In this document: positions 42,387-56,565 of the stretch, piece after piece
Layout: every line of letters begins with the position of its first letter
How positions within the stretch are numbered: the first letter of the stretch is position 1
Origin: Kordiimonas laminariae
GTDB taxonomy: Bacteria; Pseudomonadota; Alphaproteobacteria; Sphingomonadales; Kordiimonadaceae
Reading direction: 5' to 3'
DNA: 64,000 bases
Assembly: GCF_023008165.1 (NCBI RefSeq)
Contig: NZ_JAKQZA010000001.1
Coordinates: 420,796-484,795, forward strand
Translations under genes and position numbers: made by a program
The notes under the pieces: generated by a model
Seen by the model: the letters and a program-made list of their open reading frames with translations, nothing else
Told to the model about the DNA's origin: nothing
Database searches by the model: none

Positions 42387-43390
42387 CTCATGCTCTCCCG
42401 CGTTTTAAAGATTATGTAGATAAAGACTGGCGCGCCGATAACCGCCATAACCACACCGAGCCTGAGCTGGCCGTGGCCAATAGGCAGGCGAGTGAGGATA
42501 TCGGCAGCCGTCATAAGCACAGCACCTGCGAGTGCGCTCGGAAGCAGAAGTTTACGCGGTTCATACCCAATAAGCGCCCGAATAAGATGCGGCACCACTA
42601 GGCCAATGAAGCCAATTGCACCGCATACAGAAACCGTCGCCCCTACTGAAAGCGTTGTACCCAGCACCACGCGCCACCTGAGACGTTTGAGATCAATCCC
42701 CAAAGTATGCGCAGCTTCTGAACCAAGGCTAAGCGCGTTAAGCCCTTGTCCTACACCAATCATCATCAACCAGCCGACGATAATAAACGGCCCTGCAAGC
42801 ATCAGGTCATCATAGGTGCGGTTCTCAAGGGAACCCAGCATCCAGAAAATCATATCCTGAAGGGAAATAGGATTAGGCGCAAAATTCATAATGAGCGAAA
42901 TGCCAGCCGTTGCGATACTGGAAATACCCACACCGGCAAGAATAAGCGTGAGCACACTGCTGTCCCGTGATGCAAGCAGCATCAAAATCAAGGTCGCTAC
43001 CAACGCACCCATCATCGCCATACCCGGAATTGCCATCGCTGAATAAGCACTTAACCCCAGATAAATAGCAGCCACCGCACCAAAGCTTGCAGAAGATGAA
43101 ACCCCAATCACACCGGGATCAGCAAGTGGGTTCCTGAGCAGACCCTGAAGTGCGGCCCCTGTATACCCGAGCGTAGCGCCAGCCATAAGACCAAGGATAA
43201 TGCGCGGCATTCTGAGTTCCTGCACAATGATATTCACACCCGTATCGCTACCACCAAATAGCGCCTCAATCACTTGGCTAAGGGACAGGTTCACAGCGCC
43301 GAACATGCTGGAAGCTAATACAGCAACCAGGAGAAGCCCCGAAAGACCGATAAGCAGCATATTCTGCTGTAGTCTGGAAACAGATTTCAC
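42383..43390 (-). CDS. btuC: Cobalamin-type ABC transporter permease
   Basis: A 335-residue FecCD/BtuC-type permease with about ten helices and the family signatures LGLMAGATLGYTGAALQGLLRN, GVISSIATAGISL and FIGLVVPHLIRAL. It overlaps btuF by 4 bp (ATGA) upstream and btuD by 4 bp downstream. Two copies would assemble with two BtuD subunits. The corrinoid role is inferred from the B12 riboswitch. Confidence 0.94.
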   Translation of the reverse strand: MKSVSRLQQNMLLIGLSGLLLVAVLASSMFGAVNLSLSQVIEALFGGSDTGVNIIVQELRMPRIILGLMAGATLGYTGAALQGLLRNPLADPGVIGVSSSASFGAVAAIYLGLSAYSAMAIPGMAMMGALVATLILMLLASRDSSVLTLILAGVGISSIATAGISLIMNFAPNPISLQDMIFWMLGSLENRTYDDLMLAGPFIIVGWLMMIGVGQGLNALSLGSEAAHTLGIDLKRLRWRVVLGTTLSVGATVSVCGAIGFIGLVVPHLIRALIGYEPRKLLLPSALAGAVLMTAADILTRLPIGHGQLRLGVVMAVIGAPVFIYIIFKTRESMR

Positions 43391-44241
43391 CGGCTTTCTC
43401 CTTCTGTTTTAAGCCCGAGCAGCTTGGCTTGCTTTCGAATATCTTCGACAGCATCTACCGCGAAGGTACTGCCGCAGGAAAAATAACGGCTTGGCAGGTG
43501 AATGGTTGGGATATCGGCCATAAGACGGCGATAGATAGGGTGCCTGCCACTGCTCCAGTGGGAGATATGCACATCTTCATCACCGAAGAAACTGGCGATC
43601 ACCACATCTGGTTTGTTGTTGGCAATATGCTCAAGAGAAAGCGGTGCCCAATACTGAAGCCCATAATCAGCCACATAAGGTTTGAACCCTGCCAGCTCAA
43701 TCATTTTGGAAATATAAGTTTCCGTGCCTGCGGTGAACCCGCTTGGCGTTACATACACTGCCTTAAGCCCATAGGATGAAAGCTTCTGCAACTCTTTCAA
43801 GCGCTGGCTATAGATCGCTCGTAGTTTAGCGCCGTTGGCCCTTTCGCCGATGAGCTCACCTACCTTTTCAAAATTCTCGATCGCTGCTTCAAAAGTAGCA
43901 GCATAGGGCGGTTGGATAGCTTCAATACCTGCTTTTTTTAGAAGGACGTCTCCACGTGAACTCCCCCGCCACGAACGCAACACATAGGCCGGATCAAGCA
44001 ACAGTAATTCTTCAAGATTGGCGGACACAATCTTTAAGTCACGTGCTTTTTCCCGGAACATGGACCGGTCCCCCACCGCATCTTCCGAAACGCCAGCGAT
44101 CCGTTTATTTTCTGTAAGCGCGAGCAAATATTGATCCGCGCAAAAATCAATAGACGCTATTCGGTCCGTTTCCTCTGCGACAACAGCGCGAGAGAAGAAC
44201 AACATCCCTACAAAACTTATGAATATCAATACGATATTGGC
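43387..44241 (-). CDS. btuF: Cobalamin-type periplasmic binding protein
   Basis: A 284-residue binding protein of the BtuF/FhuD fold with a signal peptide (ANIVLIFISFVGMLFFSRAVVA). The phrases RIASIDFCADQYLLALTENKRI and FKPYVADYGLQYWAPLSLEHI are typical of class III binding proteins. I use GTG 44241, with GGAG nine bases upstream; a GTG six codons earlier (44259) is also possible. It is the first gene behind the riboswitch, so translation start and RNA switch are close together. It lacks neighbouring TonB-receptor genes in this window. Confidence 0.9.
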   Translation of the reverse strand, partial: ANIVLIFISFVGMLFFSRAVVAEETDRIASIDFCADQYLLALTENKRIAGVSEDAVGDRSMFREKARDLKIVSANLEELLLLDPAYVLRSWRGSSRGDVLLKKAGIEAIQPPYAATFEAAIENFEKVGELIGERANGAKLRAIYSQRLKELQKLSSYGLKAVYVTPSGFTAGTETYISKMIELAGFKPYVADYGLQYWAPLSLEHIANNKPDVVIASFFGDEDVHISHWSSGRHPIYRRLMADIPTIHLPSRYFSCGSTFAVDAVEDIRKQAKLLGLKTEGESR

Positions 44242-44272
44242 CACAATTACAATCTCCACACATCATGGGATT

Positions 44273-47497: not shown

Positions 47498-47869
47498 TCA
47501 CTGCGATAGATCTTGCGCCAGCATCAGGGCATTTCCATCAGGGTCATAGAACGTCGCAATGCTAACCATGCCTTCAATCGTTTCTGTCGGCCCATCAAAC
47601 TTCACACCAGCCTGCTCCAGGGCTTTCCGTCCTGACGCAATATCCGCAATACCAAACACCGGAACACAGTTTCCCGGTGTGGGCTCTACCTGTTCACCAA
47701 GGCCTAGCGTTACACCTTCTGTGTTGGTTTGCATCTCGCTCCAGCCAGCTTCATCAATATGGAACAGAAGTTTAAAGCCGAGGTTTTGTTCATACCACTC
47801 AGCACTTGCATGCCTATCCTTCACAGAAAGTGAGAGTGTGATTGTTTTATCTAGCGATACTACCGACAT
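47498..47869 (-). CDS. VOC (glyoxalase-fold) protein
   Basis: A 123-residue cytosolic VOC domain. The start is ATG 47869 with AGGGGAAG upstream; the open frame runs 141 codons further on the minus strand but that part is only antisense to the regulator gene. Features are the paired beta-alpha-beta units with the expected metal-ligand positions (TLSLSVKDRHASAEWYEQNLG at the start, and YDPDGNALMLAQ near the end). Reaction unknown. It is divergent from an HxlR-like regulator with a perfect palindrome between, so that regulator is the likely controller. Confidence 0.87.
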   Translation of the reverse strand: MSVVSLDKTITLSLSVKDRHASAEWYEQNLGFKLLFHIDEAGWSEMQTNTEGVTLGLGEQVEPTPGNCVPVFGIADIASGRKALEQAGVKFDGPTETIEGMVSIATFYDPDGNALMLAQDLSQ

Positions 47870-47888
47870 AATGCTTCCCCTTGTAGCA

Positions 47889-47909
47889 AAAGTATAGTAA
47901 CTATACTTT
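47889..47909. promoter_or_regulatory. Perfect 21-bp palindrome between VOC and regulator genes
   Basis: Ten-base arms (AAAGTATAGT and its complement) around a central A at 47899. It ends one base before the start codon of the regulator at 47910. TATAGT hexamers within it can serve as a -10 element for both directions. Binding here would block both genes. Confidence 0.8.
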
Positions 47910-48446
47910 ATGAATATTGCGTACCTTGTCAAGCTCACATCAAAAGCCTGGTCTCTTAAAATTCTGGCTTTACTGCATTCAGGCACCCCAGCGCGGCAAG
48001 CGCCGCTTTTGGCTGCGACTGAGGCAAGCCGCAGTTCTTTCACATCCAGCCTTGCGCACCTGATGGAACTTGGCCTTGTTGAGAAAAACCCGGGGCACGG
48101 CCACCCTCTAAGGCCTGAATTCAGGCTTACACCAGAAGGCATTATCGCAGCAGCAATGGCCAGCCGTATTATTGAAATTGTAACTAAGGAAACTGATTTT
48201 TCGCTTATCCGCCGCAACTGGGCTGTACCAATTCTTGCTGTAACACAAACACCGCAGCGCTTTTCCCATATTAAAACAGGACTTGAAACCATAACAGATC
48301 GGGCGCTATCAAAATCTCTTGGTATTCTTGAAGAACAAGAATGGCTAAAACGCGATATCGACCTATCCCACCGCGCACCTTTTCCGACCTATCATGCCAT
48401 CAACAAAGGCTTGAAAATCAATCAAGCCGTTAATCTGCATATATGA
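47910..48446 (+). CDS. HxlR/MarR-like winged-helix regulator
   Basis: A 178-residue regulator with a winged HTH at the N-terminus (WSLKILALLHSG and EASRSSFTSSLAHLMELGLV, residues about 14-57), with the typical RPEFRLTPEG wing at about 68-77, and a C-terminal helical half of unknown role that may repeat an HTH-like pattern. No Shine-Dalgarno precedes ATG 47910 because a palindromic operator occupies that space; the -10-like hexamer at 47893-47898 would place the transcript start at or very near the ATG, so a leaderless mRNA is likely. It is divergent from the VOC gene. Confidence 0.8.
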   Translation: MNIAYLVKLTSKAWSLKILALLHSGTPARQAPLLAATEASRSSFTSSLAHLMELGLVEKNPGHGHPLRPEFRLTPEGIIAAAMASRIIEIVTKETDFSLIRRNWAVPILAVTQTPQRFSHIKTGLETITDRALSKSLGILEEQEWLKRDIDLSHRAPFPTYHAINKGLKINQAVNLHI

Positions 48447-48621: not shown

Positions 48622-50118
48622 ATGAGAAAGCTTCTAAAGACGCTATGTGCTCTGGGAACATTATGTTTTTTCTCAGTTTTAAGTACAGCTGAAGAGGTAA
48701 AAATTCTCTATATTTCCTCATTACCTGAGATCATAAAAAACAAGCATGACTTTTCTTTAGCTCAAATTGCTACAGCCGTGCGCGAAGAACGCGCTAAATC
48801 CGATAATATTATTTTTGTCCACGGCGGTGCCTCTCTTGGGCCTTCTATCCTGGGTGCAATGGATAATGGCGCGCATATGATTGATGTCTTAAACATCCTT
48901 GAACCTGATGTGATGGGCGTTGGCAAACGGGAGTTTTCCTACAAGGAAGATCAATTTTCCCTCCATGCACAATCAGCAATGTTCCCTTTCATTTCCTCTA
49001 ATATCCAGTTGAAAGAAGGCCAAACACCTATTGTGGGGCTGGAGCCATATTATGTGATTGATACACTGGCCCACAGCATCGGCTTTATGGCGGTAACATC
49101 TGAAAATGTTATCGACGAGTATGGTTCTTATAAGTTGGAAGCTTTACCTCTTGAAAATTCCATAAAAAAAACCGCCGATCAGCTTCGCTCTGAAGGCGCT
49201 GAATATGTCGTGCTTATGGCAGATACAGACTATGATGATCTTTCAACCTATACAGCGGACGGCACAGTTGATCTGATCCTTTATGCACATAATATCGGCA
49301 ACCCCTATTCTGTGGATACTGGTGTGGAAAAACTCAGCAAAGGTATGCTGGACGGTCAACTCATCACCATCAACGTGGATCTGGATAATCCTGAGGGCAA
49401 AAAAGCTTCTATTGAACTGTCAGATATTGCCTCCTTTGAAGAAGATCCAGAGATCAAATCAATCGTTGAATCCTATGGTGCGCGATTAAACATTCTCTTC
49501 AGACAACAGCTCGGCACAACAGACACCGCCATGAATACCGAGCGCAACACCGTACGTACTGGTGAGAATGCTTTTGGGAATTTTGTAACCGATTCAATTC
49601 GAAACGCGATGAAAGCAGATATTGCCTTTATTAACAGCGGGGGCATTAGAGGAAACACCCGGTATCCTGCAGGTACTATTTTAACCCGCGAGCATATTCA
49701 ATCAGAATTGCCTTTCAATAATACGGTGCAGCTTTTTGAAATTACGGGTGAGCAAATTCAGGGAGCGCTTGAACACGGCTTGAGCTGCCTTGATGAAACA
49801 GATGGCTGCTTCCTTCAGGTTTCAAACATTCAAATGGAATATAACAGCAAAGCGCCCTCTGGGCAGCGTGTTATTAATGTTCTTATTGGCGGGCAGCCGC
49901 TGGAAACCGGAAAAACCTATACAGCTGCAACATTAAACTTCCTCGCAAATGGAGGTGATGGTTTTAAAATGCTACAAAACATGCCAAAGAAAACTAATCT
50001 ATTATCAGGTAAACTACTCTGGGAAGTTGTGGCAAATCAGTTAGAAGAACAGCAAACCATAGCTCCCAAATTAGAAAACAGGTTAAATGATCAGGCAACA
50101 GGAAGCTCTGCTTCATAG
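48622..50118 (+). CDS. 5'-nucleotidase-fold secreted protein with decayed metal sites
   Basis: A 498-residue secreted protein (signal peptide residues 1-23, ends STA-EE) with the two-domain plan of UshA/5'-nucleotidases. The N-terminal metallophosphoesterase part aligns end to end, but its ligands are gone: the usual DxH is ISSLPE, DxGD is HGGAS, GNHEFD is GKREFS, and the GHxH is YAHNIG (first His kept only). The C-terminal substrate-binding domain looks intact (NAFGNFVTDSIRNAM, INSGGIRGN, LPFNNTVQLFEITG, NFLANGGDGF). It is probably a non-catalytic nucleotide or ligand binder. The next gene, a hybrid kinase, begins 8 bp downstream. Confidence 0.87.
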   Translation: MRKLLKTLCALGTLCFFSVLSTAEEVKILYISSLPEIIKNKHDFSLAQIATAVREERAKSDNIIFVHGGASLGPSILGAMDNGAHMIDVLNILEPDVMGVGKREFSYKEDQFSLHAQSAMFPFISSNIQLKEGQTPIVGLEPYYVIDTLAHSIGFMAVTSENVIDEYGSYKLEALPLENSIKKTADQLRSEGAEYVVLMADTDYDDLSTYTADGTVDLILYAHNIGNPYSVDTGVEKLSKGMLDGQLITINVDLDNPEGKKASIELSDIASFEEDPEIKSIVESYGARLNILFRQQLGTTDTAMNTERNTVRTGENAFGNFVTDSIRNAMKADIAFINSGGIRGNTRYPAGTILTREHIQSELPFNNTVQLFEITGEQIQGALEHGLSCLDETDGCFLQVSNIQMEYNSKAPSGQRVINVLIGGQPLETGKTYTAATLNFLANGGDGFKMLQNMPKKTNLLSGKLLWEVVANQLEEQQTIAPKLENRLNDQATGSSAS

Positions 50119-50126
50119 GAAATAGC

Positions 50127-53100
50127 GTGCAACATCAGGTTATTAGTAAAAGTAAACTCGGCATCAGCGTTCGTATTACCCTTGGGGTTTTAACTCTGGT
50201 GGCCCTTGTTTTACTGCTTGCTTCCATTTCTTATTACTCACTGACACGGTTCCAGGACGATGTAAAAAGCCTGTCTTCCGAAGCATTACCAGCATTGTCT
50301 GGTGCCGCCCAACTCAACACTGAACTTGAAAATGTAGTATTGAATGTTGTGCAATTGGCTAGAGTGCAAAGCCATGCGGAACGGCGGATCAGTATCTCAG
50401 AAAGCCGCGAAGCGCTTGAGCGCGTACAGCTGATTACCGATAACCTGAAGGGGCAGTATAAAGACCTGTTATTCACTTCGATGGTTGAGGTGCTATCCAT
50501 CTCTGTCGAGGACCTGAACACCATTAAATCCCGCCATCTGGATAAGTCTGTTGAAATTAATAAAATCGAAGGAGACTTGAACACCTTCACCATCGAGATC
50601 GGGCAGTATCTTCAAGAGGTTGAAGATAATTTTGACGACAGCCCTCTTCAACACAAGCTCTTTAAATGGCAGTCAAATTTATCCCTGATTACACTGGAAT
50701 CTTTCCAGATCAGCCGCACTGAAAACCTGAAGAATATCCGTTCTATACAGAAGGAAATCAGGCGCGAGTTCACTTCTTTTGAAGCTAATCATCTTAGCTC
50801 AAATCCTGAACTGCTATCATATCAGCTCGCGACCGAAAATAAATTGAAGCAGATTATTTTAGGCCGTGAAGGGCTTTTTAAAACGGCAACAGATGCCGTT
50901 CGTCTACGCCTCAGGGTACAAGGCCTGGAACGCCAGACGAGAGTACTTGTAAATGAAATGATTAAGTCGATGGCAACCTTGTCAGAGACAATCAACAGTA
51001 CCGCTTCAGAAAACACATCAGAACTCATTACTCTGGCTGACGAGCAAATTCAGTATATCATGGTTGCATCACTCCTGGCCTTTACCATCGGCATTGTTAT
51101 TTTTGTTTATTTTGACCGTAACATTACCAGCCGCTTATTAGATCTCAATGTGGCCGTGGTTGCTCGCGCTGAAGGGGAAGCCAAACCAATTCCAACTTCG
51201 GGCAATGATGAAATCGCAGAAATTGGTAATTCCGTTAGCTATTTCATCAAGGAAATTGATGAACGGCAGGAACGTATTCTGGCGAACGAACGCCAGTTCC
51301 GCTCTATCGTTGAAGGCTCAGTTCAGGCGATTATCATTATCGCCGATGATAGCCCTTTATTCTGGAATAGTGCTTTCTCGAAATTGTTTGGCTTGAATAC
51401 AGATGACAATATGGAAAGCCATAGAGACATTTTCAAAAAACTTCCAAAAACAGTCTTTTCCGTTCCAGAACTTGGTGAAGTAAACAGCTATAGCCGTATT
51501 CATCTGGACGATATAGACGGCGAAGAAAAATGGGTGGATTTGGTTACCACAGGATTGATCTGGAACGACACTCCTGCATTGCAAATGATCTTAGCTGATG
51601 TAACCCAACATATGCTTGCTGAAAAATCTCTCGCCTCAGCAAAAGCTCGCGCGGAAGAATTAACTGAAGCTAAGAGCCAATTCCTTGCTACTATGAGCCA
51701 TGAAATCCGTTCTCCTATGAACGGTATCATTACCATGTCTGACCTGCTGTCGCAGAGCAAACTGGATTCAGAGCAGGCAAATATGACGGGCGTTATTAAC
51801 CGTTCGGCCCAAGCGCTTTTATCTATCATCAATGACATTCTTGATTTCTCTAAAATCGAAGCTGGCAAACTTGATATAGAGAAAACGCCGTTCAATCTTC
51901 ATACCCTTATCAGGGAAGTGGCCGACCTTATGGCCCCTAAATTCTCGGAGAAAGGGCTTGAACTGATTGTGGATGTAGATATCTCCATTCCTTCTCTGAT
52001 CAATGGGGATCCTAACCGTCTCAGACAGATTTTGATCAATCTTATCGGGAATGCTGAGAAGTTTACAGAAACTGGCCATGTAACACTAAAAGCATCTCAT
52101 ATGATGGCTGCTTCGGTTCCAAATGTAGCCGAAGTTACATTTCAGGTTGTTGATACCGGCATTGGTATTGATGAACACGTACTGCCAAGACTTTTCACAC
52201 CATTTGAACAGGCAGAAACCTCAACTGCTCGCAGGTTTGGAGGTTCTGGCCTTGGGCTAAGCATTTGTAAGCGTCTCACAGAACTTCAAGGTGGGTCTAT
52301 CGGTGTAAACAGCATTGTTAATGTTGGCAGCGACTTCTTTTTCACCATTCCTTACGAAGTGGTAGATGAGCGTTCAAGGCAAACCTTAGCTCCGCTGAAT
52401 AACGCTCATATCATTATGCGCAGCCGAGCAGAAAACACCGATCTATGGAAAGAATGGATAGAATTGGCGGGCGGCAATGCTTTTGTTGCACAGCGACATG
52501 ATGATATCAGTAAGCTATCCACACGTGATACGATCCTGCTTCTGGATTATGACCAGCTAAGTGATGATGAGGTTCTGCGAACCCTAGTGCGCCGCACAGT
52601 CAGCCAAAAAGGCTGTAAAGTAGCCCTCCTCACTCCTGCAGGCCTTTACGGTAATTCTCTACAAAATCTCCTACCTTTTGACGGGAACATCAGCAAGCCA
52701 GCCCACCCACAAACACTTACTGAATTGCTTGCATCTGTACGTGATGGTGTTCACCTAAACACCGTGAGAGCTGAAGAAATATCCGCATTGAATTACACTC
52801 AACCAAGTGATGCTCACGCAGCTTCTCATGGGTGCCTGATATTGGTGGTGGAAGATAACCCTGTTAACCAGATCGTAATTCAAAAGACCCTGAAGCACCT
52901 TGGCTTTGCGTTTCATATAGCTTCCAACGGCGAAGAAGCTTTGGAAAAAATACAGCAGAATAACTATGGTCTAATTTTATCTGATCTTCATATGCCGGTT
53001 ATGAACGGTATGGATTTCACAATTGCTTTGCGGCAACTAGAGAATAAACGGCATACCAATATTCCTGTGATCGCCCTTACAGCGGATATCTTGAAAGAGA

Positions 53101-53666
53101 CCAAGGATAAATGCCGAGAAATCGGCATGAATGGTTTTCTAAGTAAACCTATTGAAATGGATGACCTTGAAGCTACTATTTGTGAATGGCTGCCAGCAGC
53201 AGATCAATTAAGACGCACACAAGGCGAACCAGTGGCACTTCAGGAAGCACCAAATACAAACGGCGAAAATAAAACAGAACCAACGCCCGACCATATGCTG
53301 GATATTGAAGCTTTGTTTGATTCAAGTCGGATAGATTTCATTTTTGAAACCGATGTGGCCGAGGGACAATTACTGGTCTCCAAGTTTCTTCAAACTTTAG
53401 CGGAAAAATTAGCTGAAACCCAAGCTACCCTGCACAAACAAGACTATGAAGCAGCAAAAGCCAGTGCCCACGCGGCAAAAGGTGCAGCAGGCTCAGTTGG
53501 CGCTTTGGAAATACATGCTACCTTTAAACAGATGGAAGAAGCACTAACAAACCAATCATACGATTATGCTGTGAAACTACTAGCTGCGACCCCTCAAAAA
53601 CTTAATGATTTTGAGCGCGCAGTCATTCTTACTTATTCGTTAGAACAATCACTTAGTGGCGCATAA
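50127..53666 (+). CDS. Hybrid sensor kinase with periplasmic domain, two receivers (one decayed) and HPt
   Basis: A 1179-residue kinase starting at GTG 50127 (AGGA upstream). Domains in order: helix 1 (about 12-35), a helical periplasmic domain of about 270 residues, helix 2 (about 309-331), HAMP, PAS (about 390-500), HisKA with phospho-His near 524 (SHEIRSPMNG), HATPase_c (DTGIGI, GSGLGLSICKRL), a receiver-like domain without a full acidic pocket (about 760-890), a normal receiver (VVEDNPVN, phospho-Asp near 953 in LSDLHMP) and an HPt domain (His near 1113 in SAHAAKGAAG). The layout is TorS/BarA-like. It is coupled to the preceding secreted protein. Confidence 0.95.
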   Translation: MQHQVISKSKLGISVRITLGVLTLVALVLLLASISYYSLTRFQDDVKSLSSEALPALSGAAQLNTELENVVLNVVQLARVQSHAERRISISESREALERVQLITDNLKGQYKDLLFTSMVEVLSISVEDLNTIKSRHLDKSVEINKIEGDLNTFTIEIGQYLQEVEDNFDDSPLQHKLFKWQSNLSLITLESFQISRTENLKNIRSIQKEIRREFTSFEANHLSSNPELLSYQLATENKLKQIILGREGLFKTATDAVRLRLRVQGLERQTRVLVNEMIKSMATLSETINSTASENTSELITLADEQIQYIMVASLLAFTIGIVIFVYFDRNITSRLLDLNVAVVARAEGEAKPIPTSGNDEIAEIGNSVSYFIKEIDERQERILANERQFRSIVEGSVQAIIIIADDSPLFWNSAFSKLFGLNTDDNMESHRDIFKKLPKTVFSVPELGEVNSYSRIHLDDIDGEEKWVDLVTTGLIWNDTPALQMILADVTQHMLAEKSLASAKARAEELTEAKSQFLATMSHEIRSPMNGIITMSDLLSQSKLDSEQANMTGVINRSAQALLSIINDILDFSKIEAGKLDIEKTPFNLHTLIREVADLMAPKFSEKGLELIVDVDISIPSLINGDPNRLRQILINLIGNAEKFTETGHVTLKASHMMAASVPNVAEVTFQVVDTGIGIDEHVLPRLFTPFEQAETSTARRFGGSGLGLSICKRLTELQGGSIGVNSIVNVGSDFFFTIPYEVVDERSRQTLAPLNNAHIIMRSRAENTDLWKEWIELAGGNAFVAQRHDDISKLSTRDTILLLDYDQLSDDEVLRTLVRRTVSQKGCKVALLTPAGLYGNSLQNLLPFDGNISKPAHPQTLTELLASVRDGVHLNTVRAEEISALNYTQPSDAHAASHGCLILVVEDNPVNQIVIQKTLKHLGFAFHIASNGEEALEKIQQNNYGLILSDLHMPVMNGMDFTIALRQLENKRHTNIPVIALTADILKETKDKCREIGMNGFLSKPIEMDDLEATICEWLPAADQLRRTQGEPVALQEAPNTNGENKTEPTPDHMLDIEALFDSSRIDFIFETDVAEGQLLVSKFLQTLAEKLAETQATLHKQDYEAAKASAHAAKGAAGSVGALEIHATFKQMEEALTNQSYDYAVKLLAATPQKLNDFERAVILTYSLEQSLSGA

Positions 53667-53811: not shown

Positions 53812-56565
53812 GTGCATAATCATAATAACGGTAGTTGCCAGACATGCGGCAGCTCATGTGGTTCTAGTAAATTTTGCAGCGATGATTGTAAGTCGTCCTA
53901 CGATACATCAAAAAATGAAACTGAAACAACAACCCTGCCAGCGTCACAGGTAAAACCCAGTGATCTGTTATTACTAGGCAACAGTAACAGTTGCCAAACA
54001 TGCGGTAGCTCAAGCGGTTCCAGCGATTTTTGTAGTGATGAATGCGCTTCCTCTTTTGATGCTCAGGCATCCACGGATACAGAGGCAACAAACCAGACCA
54101 CCGGCAGCGCTCAAGCAACAACGGGCGATACCCAAACCGCCCAAATGACAGCCGAAGCCAGTGTTACTGTAGGAAGTAGCGTTACAGGAACGATTAGCGT
54201 TGAAGGCGAAGTAGACTTTATTGAAGTAGTTCTTCAGGCTGGTGTTACCTATCAAATTGACCTTGAAGGAACTCCCACTGCATCAGGCACACTAACCGAT
54301 CCATTACTCACAGGCATTTTTCTGGAAGATGGTGTTACACGTGTTGCAAACGGTAATGATGATGGTGGCTTGGTTACAAACAGCCGTATTTTATTCACGC
54401 CGACCGTATCAGGTACATATTTGATTGGAGCTTCACACTTTGACAACACCAATCAAATCGATACAGGGAGTTATACGCTGTATGTCGATACAGAAGAAAA
54501 CTCCACGCGCCCAGATCAACATGAAACTGAATTCACACCAAACAGTGGCAATAATGTTATCAACGGCCTAACAACCACACAGCAATTTTCACCAAGCGAT
54601 GATGGCATCACACGAGTTACTTTCAGTTTCCCAGATGAAGATGCAACTTTTACAGCACCGTTTATTTTAGATGACGAAGATGCAGGCACAGAGATAGATC
54701 TAACTGAAACCAATGTTCCTGCCTCAGCAAGAGCCGTTGAAATCTTCAGGAATGGGCTAGATTTTATTTCTGAGGTTGCCAATGTTCAATTCGAGGAAAT
54801 TCAGGAGGACGGAGCCAACTTTGGTGTCCTAAGGCTTTCGGGCAACAATGCTGATTCAGGAAACGTTCTGGGTATAGCAGGCCTGCCTAGTCGGTCGAAT
54901 ACTGCGGGCGATATTTTCTTGTTTGAAGACTTTATCGGCGACAATTCACGACTGGATTTTGTCACTCTTCATGAACTTGGGCACGCTCTTGGACTTAGCC
55001 ATCCAACAGACGAATTTCCGAGCCAGTTCTTTGGTGCAGAGTTCACATTACTTGTCCCAAGTTTTCAATCTGCCTTCTTTGACGATGTTACATCGGCGGA
55101 CCTTTTCCCCACGACATTCGGATATGCAGATATTTTAACACTTCGCCATATATATGATGGCCTTGATACAGCCTTCAGCGGTGATGATACCTATGTATTC
55201 GACCTGTCCAATCGTTATTTTGAGACCATTTATGATTTAGGTGGTACAGACACTATCAGGATCACCGGGGCAGGCACTGGCGTGGACATTAACCTCACCC
55301 CTGATCAAGATAACCTTGGCGGTGCTTTTATCAATGTAGGTACGACCATTCGCTATTTTGGTGGCGGCAGAGTTGTTGGAACCAGGACCGAAACTGTTTT
55401 TGTATCGCCGGAGACTGTGATCGAAAATATCATCGCTTCAGTCGAAGATGACCGTGTTATCGGAAATGCAGCTGACAACTTGATTGAAGGTGGCGAAGGT
55501 GACGATACGGTGCAAGGCGCAGACGGCAATGATCGTATTCGCGGTGAAGAAGGTGATGACAGGCTTCAAGGCAATGACGGAAACGATTTCATCGTTGGCG
55601 GCGCAGGAAACGATACAGTTTCGGCTGGTAGAGGTAATGATGAAGTCTTTGCTGGGAGCGGTGATACCGGGAATGATGTTCTGGTAGGTGAAAGCGGTAA
55701 TGATATCCTTGCTGGCGGCGGCGGAAATGACCTTATTGTTGGTGATGCACTAACCAGCAGTTTCCAAGGCCTTGCTAATATCGAAGGCGTTTCAACAGCA
55801 GCAGGCTCTGACACTCTTTTCGGAGGCTCTGGGAATGATACGATAATTGCCGCTAAATTCGATGATAGCGACGGCGATCTGATTGTAGATTCAGGTGAAT
55901 TAGTCTTCACGAATTCCTCTTCCAATACCGCTTTTGCTGGCTCAGGTGATGATGTGCTCTACGGCGATGCGGGGTCAGATATTCTTGGGGGCGGAATAGG
56001 TAATGACACAGTATTGGCTGGTGATGGCAACGACGTCATTTTTGGTGGTCGCGATACGGATTCAGGCGTTCTAAATGATGTGCTGGATGGTGAAGATGGC
56101 AATGACGAAATCTTTGCCTCTTTCGGAGATGACAGCGTTCTAGGTGGAAACGGTAGCGATACTATCTTTGGCGGTAGCGGCTCAGACACTATTGACGGCG
56201 GTGCCGGAGACGATGATCTATTTAACAGTGCAGGCAATGATACCGTTACCGGTGGAAGCGGGGACGATACTCTGCGTGCTAACGCAGGAGACGACCAACT
56301 TACTGGCGGTACAGGTAGTGATACCTTCTTCTTCAACGGAAACAGTGGAGATGATGTTATTACCGATTTCAACACCGCGAATGATGTACTGGATATCTCA
56401 AATACAACAACAGATTTTACTGATCTAGCTTCTGTCACCGCAGCCGCTAGTGAAACCACGATAAGCGGTATATCTGGTGTGTTGATCGATTTAGGAGGAG
56501 GAAACAGCGTTTTCCTTCAAGGCCTCACTCTTAATACACTTAATAACGCTGACTTTACTTTCTAA
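53812..56565 (+). CDS. Secreted RTX metalloprotease (serralysin-like) with tandem cysteine modules
   Basis: A 917-residue protein from GTG 53812 (AGGTGAG upstream), without a Sec signal. N-terminus: two copies of a Cys module, CQTCGSS ... FCSDDC (residues about 8-30) and CQTCGSS ... FCSDEC (about 61-83); a PPC-like beta domain (about 120-225); a zinc metalloprotease domain with HELGHALGLSHP (near 387); and RTX repeats of GGxGxDxU type from about 557 to 846, some 20 copies, ending in a VITDFNTANDVLDIS-type C-terminal secretion domain. Calcium-dependent folding after type I export is expected. No type I exporter genes are in the window. A strong terminator follows. Confidence 0.92.
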   Translation: MHNHNNGSCQTCGSSCGSSKFCSDDCKSSYDTSKNETETTTLPASQVKPSDLLLLGNSNSCQTCGSSSGSSDFCSDECASSFDAQASTDTEATNQTTGSAQATTGDTQTAQMTAEASVTVGSSVTGTISVEGEVDFIEVVLQAGVTYQIDLEGTPTASGTLTDPLLTGIFLEDGVTRVANGNDDGGLVTNSRILFTPTVSGTYLIGASHFDNTNQIDTGSYTLYVDTEENSTRPDQHETEFTPNSGNNVINGLTTTQQFSPSDDGITRVTFSFPDEDATFTAPFILDDEDAGTEIDLTETNVPASARAVEIFRNGLDFISEVANVQFEEIQEDGANFGVLRLSGNNADSGNVLGIAGLPSRSNTAGDIFLFEDFIGDNSRLDFVTLHELGHALGLSHPTDEFPSQFFGAEFTLLVPSFQSAFFDDVTSADLFPTTFGYADILTLRHIYDGLDTAFSGDDTYVFDLSNRYFETIYDLGGTDTIRITGAGTGVDINLTPDQDNLGGAFINVGTTIRYFGGGRVVGTRTETVFVSPETVIENIIASVEDDRVIGNAADNLIEGGEGDDTVQGADGNDRIRGEEGDDRLQGNDGNDFIVGGAGNDTVSAGRGNDEVFAGSGDTGNDVLVGESGNDILAGGGGNDLIVGDALTSSFQGLANIEGVSTAAGSDTLFGGSGNDTIIAAKFDDSDGDLIVDSGELVFTNSSSNTAFAGSGDDVLYGDAGSDILGGGIGNDTVLAGDGNDVIFGGRDTDSGVLNDVLDGEDGNDEIFASFGDDSVLGGNGSDTIFGGSGSDTIDGGAGDDDLFNSAGNDTVTGGSGDDTLRANAGDDQLTGGTGSDTFFFNGNSGDDVITDFNTANDVLDISNTTTDFTDLASVTAAASETTISGISGVLIDLGGGNSVFLQGLTLNTLNNADFTF
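53832..54061. repeat. Imperfect direct repeat encoding two Cys modules
   Basis: About 70 bp at 53832-53901 repeated at 53990-54061, 158 bp apart, with many silent and some coding differences (TGT versus AGC at one Cys). The protein copies share C-x2-C then FCS-x2-C spacing, so the module arose by duplication inside the gene. The spacing resembles treble-clef zinc-binding knuckles. Confidence 0.75.

Follow-up and report, generated by a model that had tools for sequence, protein, structure and literature searches.

A metal-less 5'-nucleotidase homologue paired with a TorS-like hybrid kinase is a likely two-gene periplasmic co-receptor

Kinases and c-di-GMP enzymes that are fed by periplasmic binders are already known, the binders being TorT, LuxP, AioX and NspS, and the known binding-protein-coupled sensors use periplasmic binding proteins. 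In the TorT/TorS system of E. coli and Vibrio, the periplasmic binding protein TorT works with a hybrid kinase, which has an all-helical sensor and a HisKA-HATPase-REC-HPt plan. In LuxP/LuxQ and AioX/AioS, a membrane kinase relies on a secreted binder to sense the ligand (PMC5908839, PMC8534201). The LuxQ sensor has a double PDC fold, AioX is a PhnD-like binding protein, and neither the LuxP nor the AioX binder has the fold of a 5'-nucleotidase. In NspS/MbaA of Vibrio cholerae and Sinorhizobium meliloti, the c-di-GMP output of the membrane partner is set by NspS, a polyamine-binding periplasmic protein (PMC5646818, PMC9993111). The 5'-nucleotidases themselves are best approached through E. coli UshA, in which the base stacks between F429 and F498, domain closure is established, and a large domain rotation brings the terminal phosphate to the metal site (PMC7922932, PMC8475336). 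In the structures of UshA, R375, R379, R410, N431, G458 and D504 also touch the substrate.

The locus described here lies in a window of 64,000 nucleotides (the whole stretch of DNA that was analysed) and resembles TorT/TorS in its pairing of a periplasmic binder with a hybrid kinase of the same general plan. TorT is a periplasmic binding protein, whereas the proposed binder of this locus has a 5'-nucleotidase fold. It is likely that the two genes encode a TorT/TorS-like periplasmic co-receptor, in which a non-catalytic 5'-nucleotidase would serve as the binder, its ligands probably being nucleosides or nucleotides from outside the cell, although there are no binding, activity or interaction data. 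An earlier note, made from the sequence alone, knew of no described case of a nucleotidase-fold binder, and no description of such a binder coupled to a kinase or a diguanylate cyclase was found in the literature searched either. This absence is weak, as most subscription journals were outside the search.

The binder gene (48622..50118, plus strand) encodes a secreted, metal-less homologue of the UshA-type 5'-nucleotidases of 498 amino acids; its proposed role draws on Pfam, a predicted model, the fold match and 38 other sensor-linked homologues. A Sec-type signal peptide without a lipobox was inferred by eye from the sequence at about residues 1-23 (48622..48690, plus strand). The AlphaFold2 model of the protein (pLDDT 84.6) matches the UshA/CD73 5'-nucleotidases over the full length, with the same two-domain fold. 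The best match in the structure comparison is the E. coli protein 3ivd/3ive, the structures of which were solved with uridine and cytidine, followed by a snake venom enzyme, CD73 and UshA. Pfam detects 5_nucleotid_C with E = 3e-41 and gives no match to a metallophosphatase domain at E<=1. No second 5_nucleotid_C protein is present in the same genome.

The N-terminal, former catalytic domain (48694..49431, plus strand) has lost its metal site. In the alignment to UshA of E. coli MG1655, the residues D41, H43, D84, N116, H117, H217 and H252 correspond to S, P, A, K, R, D and H (the replacements being S33, P35, A70, K102-R103 and D201), and H252 is the sole one of these seven dimetal-ligand or catalytic-histidine positions to be kept. 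The motifs now read SSLPE, HGGAS, GKREFS and AHNI. As the dimetal ligands and the catalytic histidine are lost, we infer from the sequence that the protein is a 5'-nucleotidase homologue and do not class it as an active 5'-nucleotidase. Binders of this type share the full-length two-domain fold and the nucleotide-pocket residues with UshA, CD73 and 3ivd; they differ in having neither metal site nor catalytic histidine and in being always paired with a sensor protein. Metal-less binders score well on 5'-nucleotidase models, and we infer that they are probably misannotated as enzymes.

The C-terminal substrate domain (49510..49977, plus strand) has retained the nucleotide pocket. The alignment places R308, R312, R343, F365, N367, G395, F440 and D446 at UshA R375, R379, R410, F429, N431, G458, F498 and D504, with all eight residues identical. 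Thus two claims of the earlier note held: 1) the two-domain UshA plan with all metal motifs replaced is borne out by the fold match and the alignment, to which the change of H217 to D201 adds a loss that had not been listed; 2) the C-terminal substrate domain is intact, as judged from the Pfam match and the eight pocket residues. In all 39 sensor-linked proteins R379, R410, G458 and D504 (UshA numbering) do not vary, and the two stacking positions always hold F or Y. N431, which contacts the base in UshA, is replaced by G in three kinase-linked proteins and by S, T or A in most of the GGDEF-linked proteins described below, so that base recognition may differ among them. The conservation of the pocket strengthens the suggestion, put forward in the earlier note, that extracellular nucleotides may be sensed, although ligand binding and the class of the ligand remain inferred. 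The K102-R103 pair occupies the place of N116-H117 of the metal site and might possibly hold an anion without metals; this too is an inference.

Full-length relatives of the binder are carried by 19 genomes of the same order, with identities of 35-98%. The losses of the metal motifs are common to all 20 homologues of the order (this protein included), in which new residues have become fixed: UshA N40 is replaced by S, N116 by K and H217 by D in every one, and H117 by R in 90%. Between the binder gene and its nearest relative (98% identical in protein), dN/dS is 0.037 overall and lowest, 0.018, in the former catalytic N-domain, so that selection in this closest pair is strongly purifying. Positions fixed in the active alphaproteobacterial relatives are lost in 2 of 39 cases in the C-domain versus 13 of 34 in the N-domain. 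The N116-H117 pair is absent from all sensor-linked proteins (0/39), none of which has restored metal ligands, while relatives of the class without a sensor nearby retain theirs, 44 of the 47 scored having both N116 and H117. As the sequences counted are related, the counts do not stand for independent events. The conserved losses and the purifying selection support the earlier proposal of a selected non-catalytic binding role, in which both binding and inactivity are inferred.

Other altered copies of the fold were met in passing. Genome G371 has three UshA-like copies (L114 5001-8236 and L115 5070-6701); in two of them some of the metal ligands are missing and no sensor gene adjoins, possibly through independent decay. 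In genome G438, a nucleotidase-fold protein (L126 4682-6538) retains neither metal ligand and is without most of the pocket residues; no sensor partner is found nearby, and it is another derived use of the fold.

The pairing of binder and sensor genes is invariable: in all 39 sensor-linked cases checked the binder gene adjoins the gene of a sensor protein, and the pairing is kept in every relative found. In all 19 relatives from the order, the binder gene is directly followed on its own strand by a histidine kinase gene, often with an overlap of a few bases. The binder profile and the kinase-sensor profile pick the same 20 of the 298 genomes of the order, with the two genes adjacent, which argues that the pairing is not due to chance. 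In one further genome of the 298 the sensor profile finds no more than a weak match (38 bits), towards the membrane end. A scan of genome contigs returned only two loci, one of which is a true relative. Evolutionary distances of the binder correlate with those of the sensor (r 0.94) and of the catalytic part of the kinase (r 0.88); this could fit co-evolution, but mostly reflects shared ancestry and is not counted as evidence.

The hybrid histidine kinase (50127..53666, plus strand; 1179 amino acids) consists of TM1, a periplasmic all-helical sensor, TM2, HAMP, PAS, HisKA, HATPase, REC and HPt. It starts with GTG at 50127 and the binder stop ends at 50118, leaving eight bases between the genes. 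TM1 spans about residues 16-40 and TM2 about 307-329, and the predicted periplasmic sensor domain, which has the TorS fold in the structure model, comprises residues 41-306 (50247..51044, plus strand), about 266 residues. Domain searches place HisKA with the phospho-acceptor H525 at 51669..51866, HATPase_c at 52005..52358, the receiver domain with the phospho-acceptor D953 at 52839..53180, and HPt with the motif AHAAKG (H1115) at 53373..53606, all on the plus strand. Pfam recovers the HisKA-HATPase-REC-HPt plan, and the PAS and HAMP matches are weak. The output of the kinase would be a His-Asp-His relay through H525, D953 and H1115; its pathway and target are inferred, and no cognate response regulator is encoded near the pair. 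In the alignment of the kinases, HPt is also found in three relatives (L034, L036 and L037) and is absent from the others. The partner kinase of one of the 19 relatives, at L039 11966-14613 (genome G015), is split between the HATPase and receiver domains into two ORFs, which might be due to a frameshift or an assembly error or might represent two proteins.

With both aligners, the model of the sensor (kinase residues 1-388, pLDDT 83.3) is closest to the TorS sensor domain; 3i9y gives Z 21.1 and an rmsd of 2.0 Å over 224 residues. The first five places are taken by TorS chains, with Z of 17.5-21.1, and the TorS-TorT complexes 3o1h, 3o1i and 3o1j match at Z of about 19.5. McpZ, McpS and PilJ come next at Z of 14.8-16.8, and unrelated helical proteins appear from about 14.5. 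Only 19-20 sequences were used for each structure model. When the sensor was compared by sequence and profile with PDB chains and with TorS of E. coli, no similarity emerged outside the HAMP region, and for this reason the link to TorS rests on predicted structure alone. The kinase also differs from TorS in its extra PAS region and in the absence of tor genes alongside, and its score of 428.9 bits falls short of the cut-off of the NCBIfam TorS equivalog model, which is 676.5. It is therefore not classed as TorS, although on the basis of the model it is predicted to have the TorS sensor fold and to work like TorS. Of the earlier claims about the kinase, the start eight bases after the binder stop held, the 270-residue periplasmic domain held approximately, and the TorS-like nature, proposed from architecture alone, is supported by the predicted structure, in which the closest solved folds are those of TorS, complexes with TorT included.

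A related sensor that is joined to a diguanylate cyclase output in another class is an addition to what had been noted before. In another alphaproteobacterial family, genome G109 carries a diverged pair, in which the binder again has no metal site and the kinase has a sensor of this kind (215 bits). When the whole phylum was scanned, the sensor also turned up in a family of another class, where 18 of 18 metal-less homologues directly precede a protein of 532-578 residues that joins the sensor to GGDEF (diguanylate cyclase) in place of a kinase; GGDEF was called by Pfam in the three proteins tested, and the others were assigned with a home-made profile. The kinase is thus not obligatory. NspS/MbaA is an analogue of this GGDEF-linked form, with the difference that NspS binds polyamines and the GGDEF-linked binder is a metal-less nucleotidase. 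In the FastTree phylogeny all 39 linked binders form one clade (support 0.998) within free-standing enzymes, and IQ-TREE without the GGDEF-linked set recovers the 20 proteins of the order and that of G109 as a clade (100/88); owing to long branches, the exact placement of the clade is less sure. The simplest history, which is inferred, would have the metal site lost once, together with capture of the binder by the sensor, and the output exchanged later.

Among kinases that are more distant but have related sensors, five loci (L184, L186, L187, L190 and L196) include a neighbouring SBP_bac_3 solute-binding protein. These neighbours fit coupling to a binding protein as a possible general design of this sensor type, and the five loci hint that kinases coupled in this way may form a wider family.

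By combining these observations it is possible to propose how the pair might work, each step being inferred. A 5'-nucleotidase that lost its dimetal centre would have been retained as a secreted binder. A nucleoside, nucleotide or nucleotide-like ligand would enter the conserved pocket of the C-domain, with its base between F365 and F440 and its phosphate or ribose held by R308, R312 and R343 and by D446. The hinge between the two domains may then switch between open and closed states, as in UshA. The binder would rest on the TorS-fold periplasmic domain encoded by the next gene, in a physical complex that is itself inferred, and the ligand-driven change would be passed across the membrane by the sensor, as in TorS. 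The output would be the phosphorelay of the hybrid kinase in this locus and its relatives, and a diguanylate cyclase in the family of the other class.

Four other explanations can be considered. The one that survives best, although unlikely, retains the co-receptor design with a ligand that is neither nucleotide nor nucleoside, the pocket being kept for the sake of the fold or re-tuned to another small molecule. The variation at N431 among the linked proteins speaks for it, as does the gain of the fixed K102-R103 in the former catalytic cleft, by which the whole binding site is altered. Against it, R379, R410, G458, D504 and the aromatic stackers are kept throughout, though the metal-site positions were free to change. 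A second, very unlikely alternative is that the metal-less protein binds no ligand and serves the sensor as a constitutive partner or inhibitor (a scaffold or a reporter of envelope state). The strong constraint on the N-domain in the closest pair and the new fixed motifs are compatible with a protein-protein contact, but the conservation of the C-domain pocket would then be needless, and related sensors adjoin solute-binding proteins.

Still less probable is that the protein has remained an enzyme, working without metal or by an altered chemistry, so that the pair would link hydrolysis to signalling. New fixed charged residues in the cleft (K102, R103 and D201) could be taken in its favor, but almost none of the metal-binding residues remains, the catalytic H117 is lost, and the single substitution H117A in CpdB left that enzyme essentially inactive on 3'-AMP (PMC7922932). 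A decaying enzyme or recent pseudogene that lies upstream of the kinase by accident would account for the lost catalytic motifs, but is all but excluded by the low dN/dS, the unbroken pairing and losses common to a clade across two classes with new fixed residues, and recent decay was rejected on the motif alignment, dN/dS and the clade.

The preferred reading of a nucleotidase-derived co-receptor can be put more boldly, and here the balance tips only slightly in its favor: the pair may represent a class of bacterial receptors, so far undescribed, that detect nucleosides or nucleotides outside the cell. The TorS-type sensor of such a receptor would have a non-catalytic 5'-nucleotidase fold as its ligand-binding subunit and would feed either a phosphorelay or c-di-GMP synthesis. 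If true, a nucleotidase recruited as a binder would be a receptor that arose by losing chemistry and retaining recognition, and bacteria would possess a dedicated sensor for dissolved nucleotides or nucleosides, which supply phosphorus, nitrogen and carbon. As the same input module is joined to two outputs, the kinase and the diguanylate cyclase, the question of the ligand is directly testable.

In the relatives, the conserved neighbours of the pair are annotated as unrelated metabolic, transport or housekeeping genes, and the gene context thus does not name a regulon. Downstream of the kinase, 53812-56565 encodes a protein of RTX type that has a Peptidase_M10-like region and, in its N-terminal part, repeats of a Cys-rich motif (CQTCGSSxGSSxFCSDxC); it is also found in L034, L036 and, further on, L037, and could be a target or a mere neighbour. 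Upstream of the pair, a minus-strand ORF at 47498-48292, with a C-terminal part that looks glyoxalase-like by eye, shares close to 400 bases with the gene of an HxlR-type regulator on the plus strand (47910-48446), and its real start probably lies well inside the longest ORF. The binding-protein-like gene of an ABC importer cluster (43387-44259) has a homologue in L035-L037 that is adjoined by an ORF of 630-656 residues, and in the window a chemoreceptor-like gene stands in that place.
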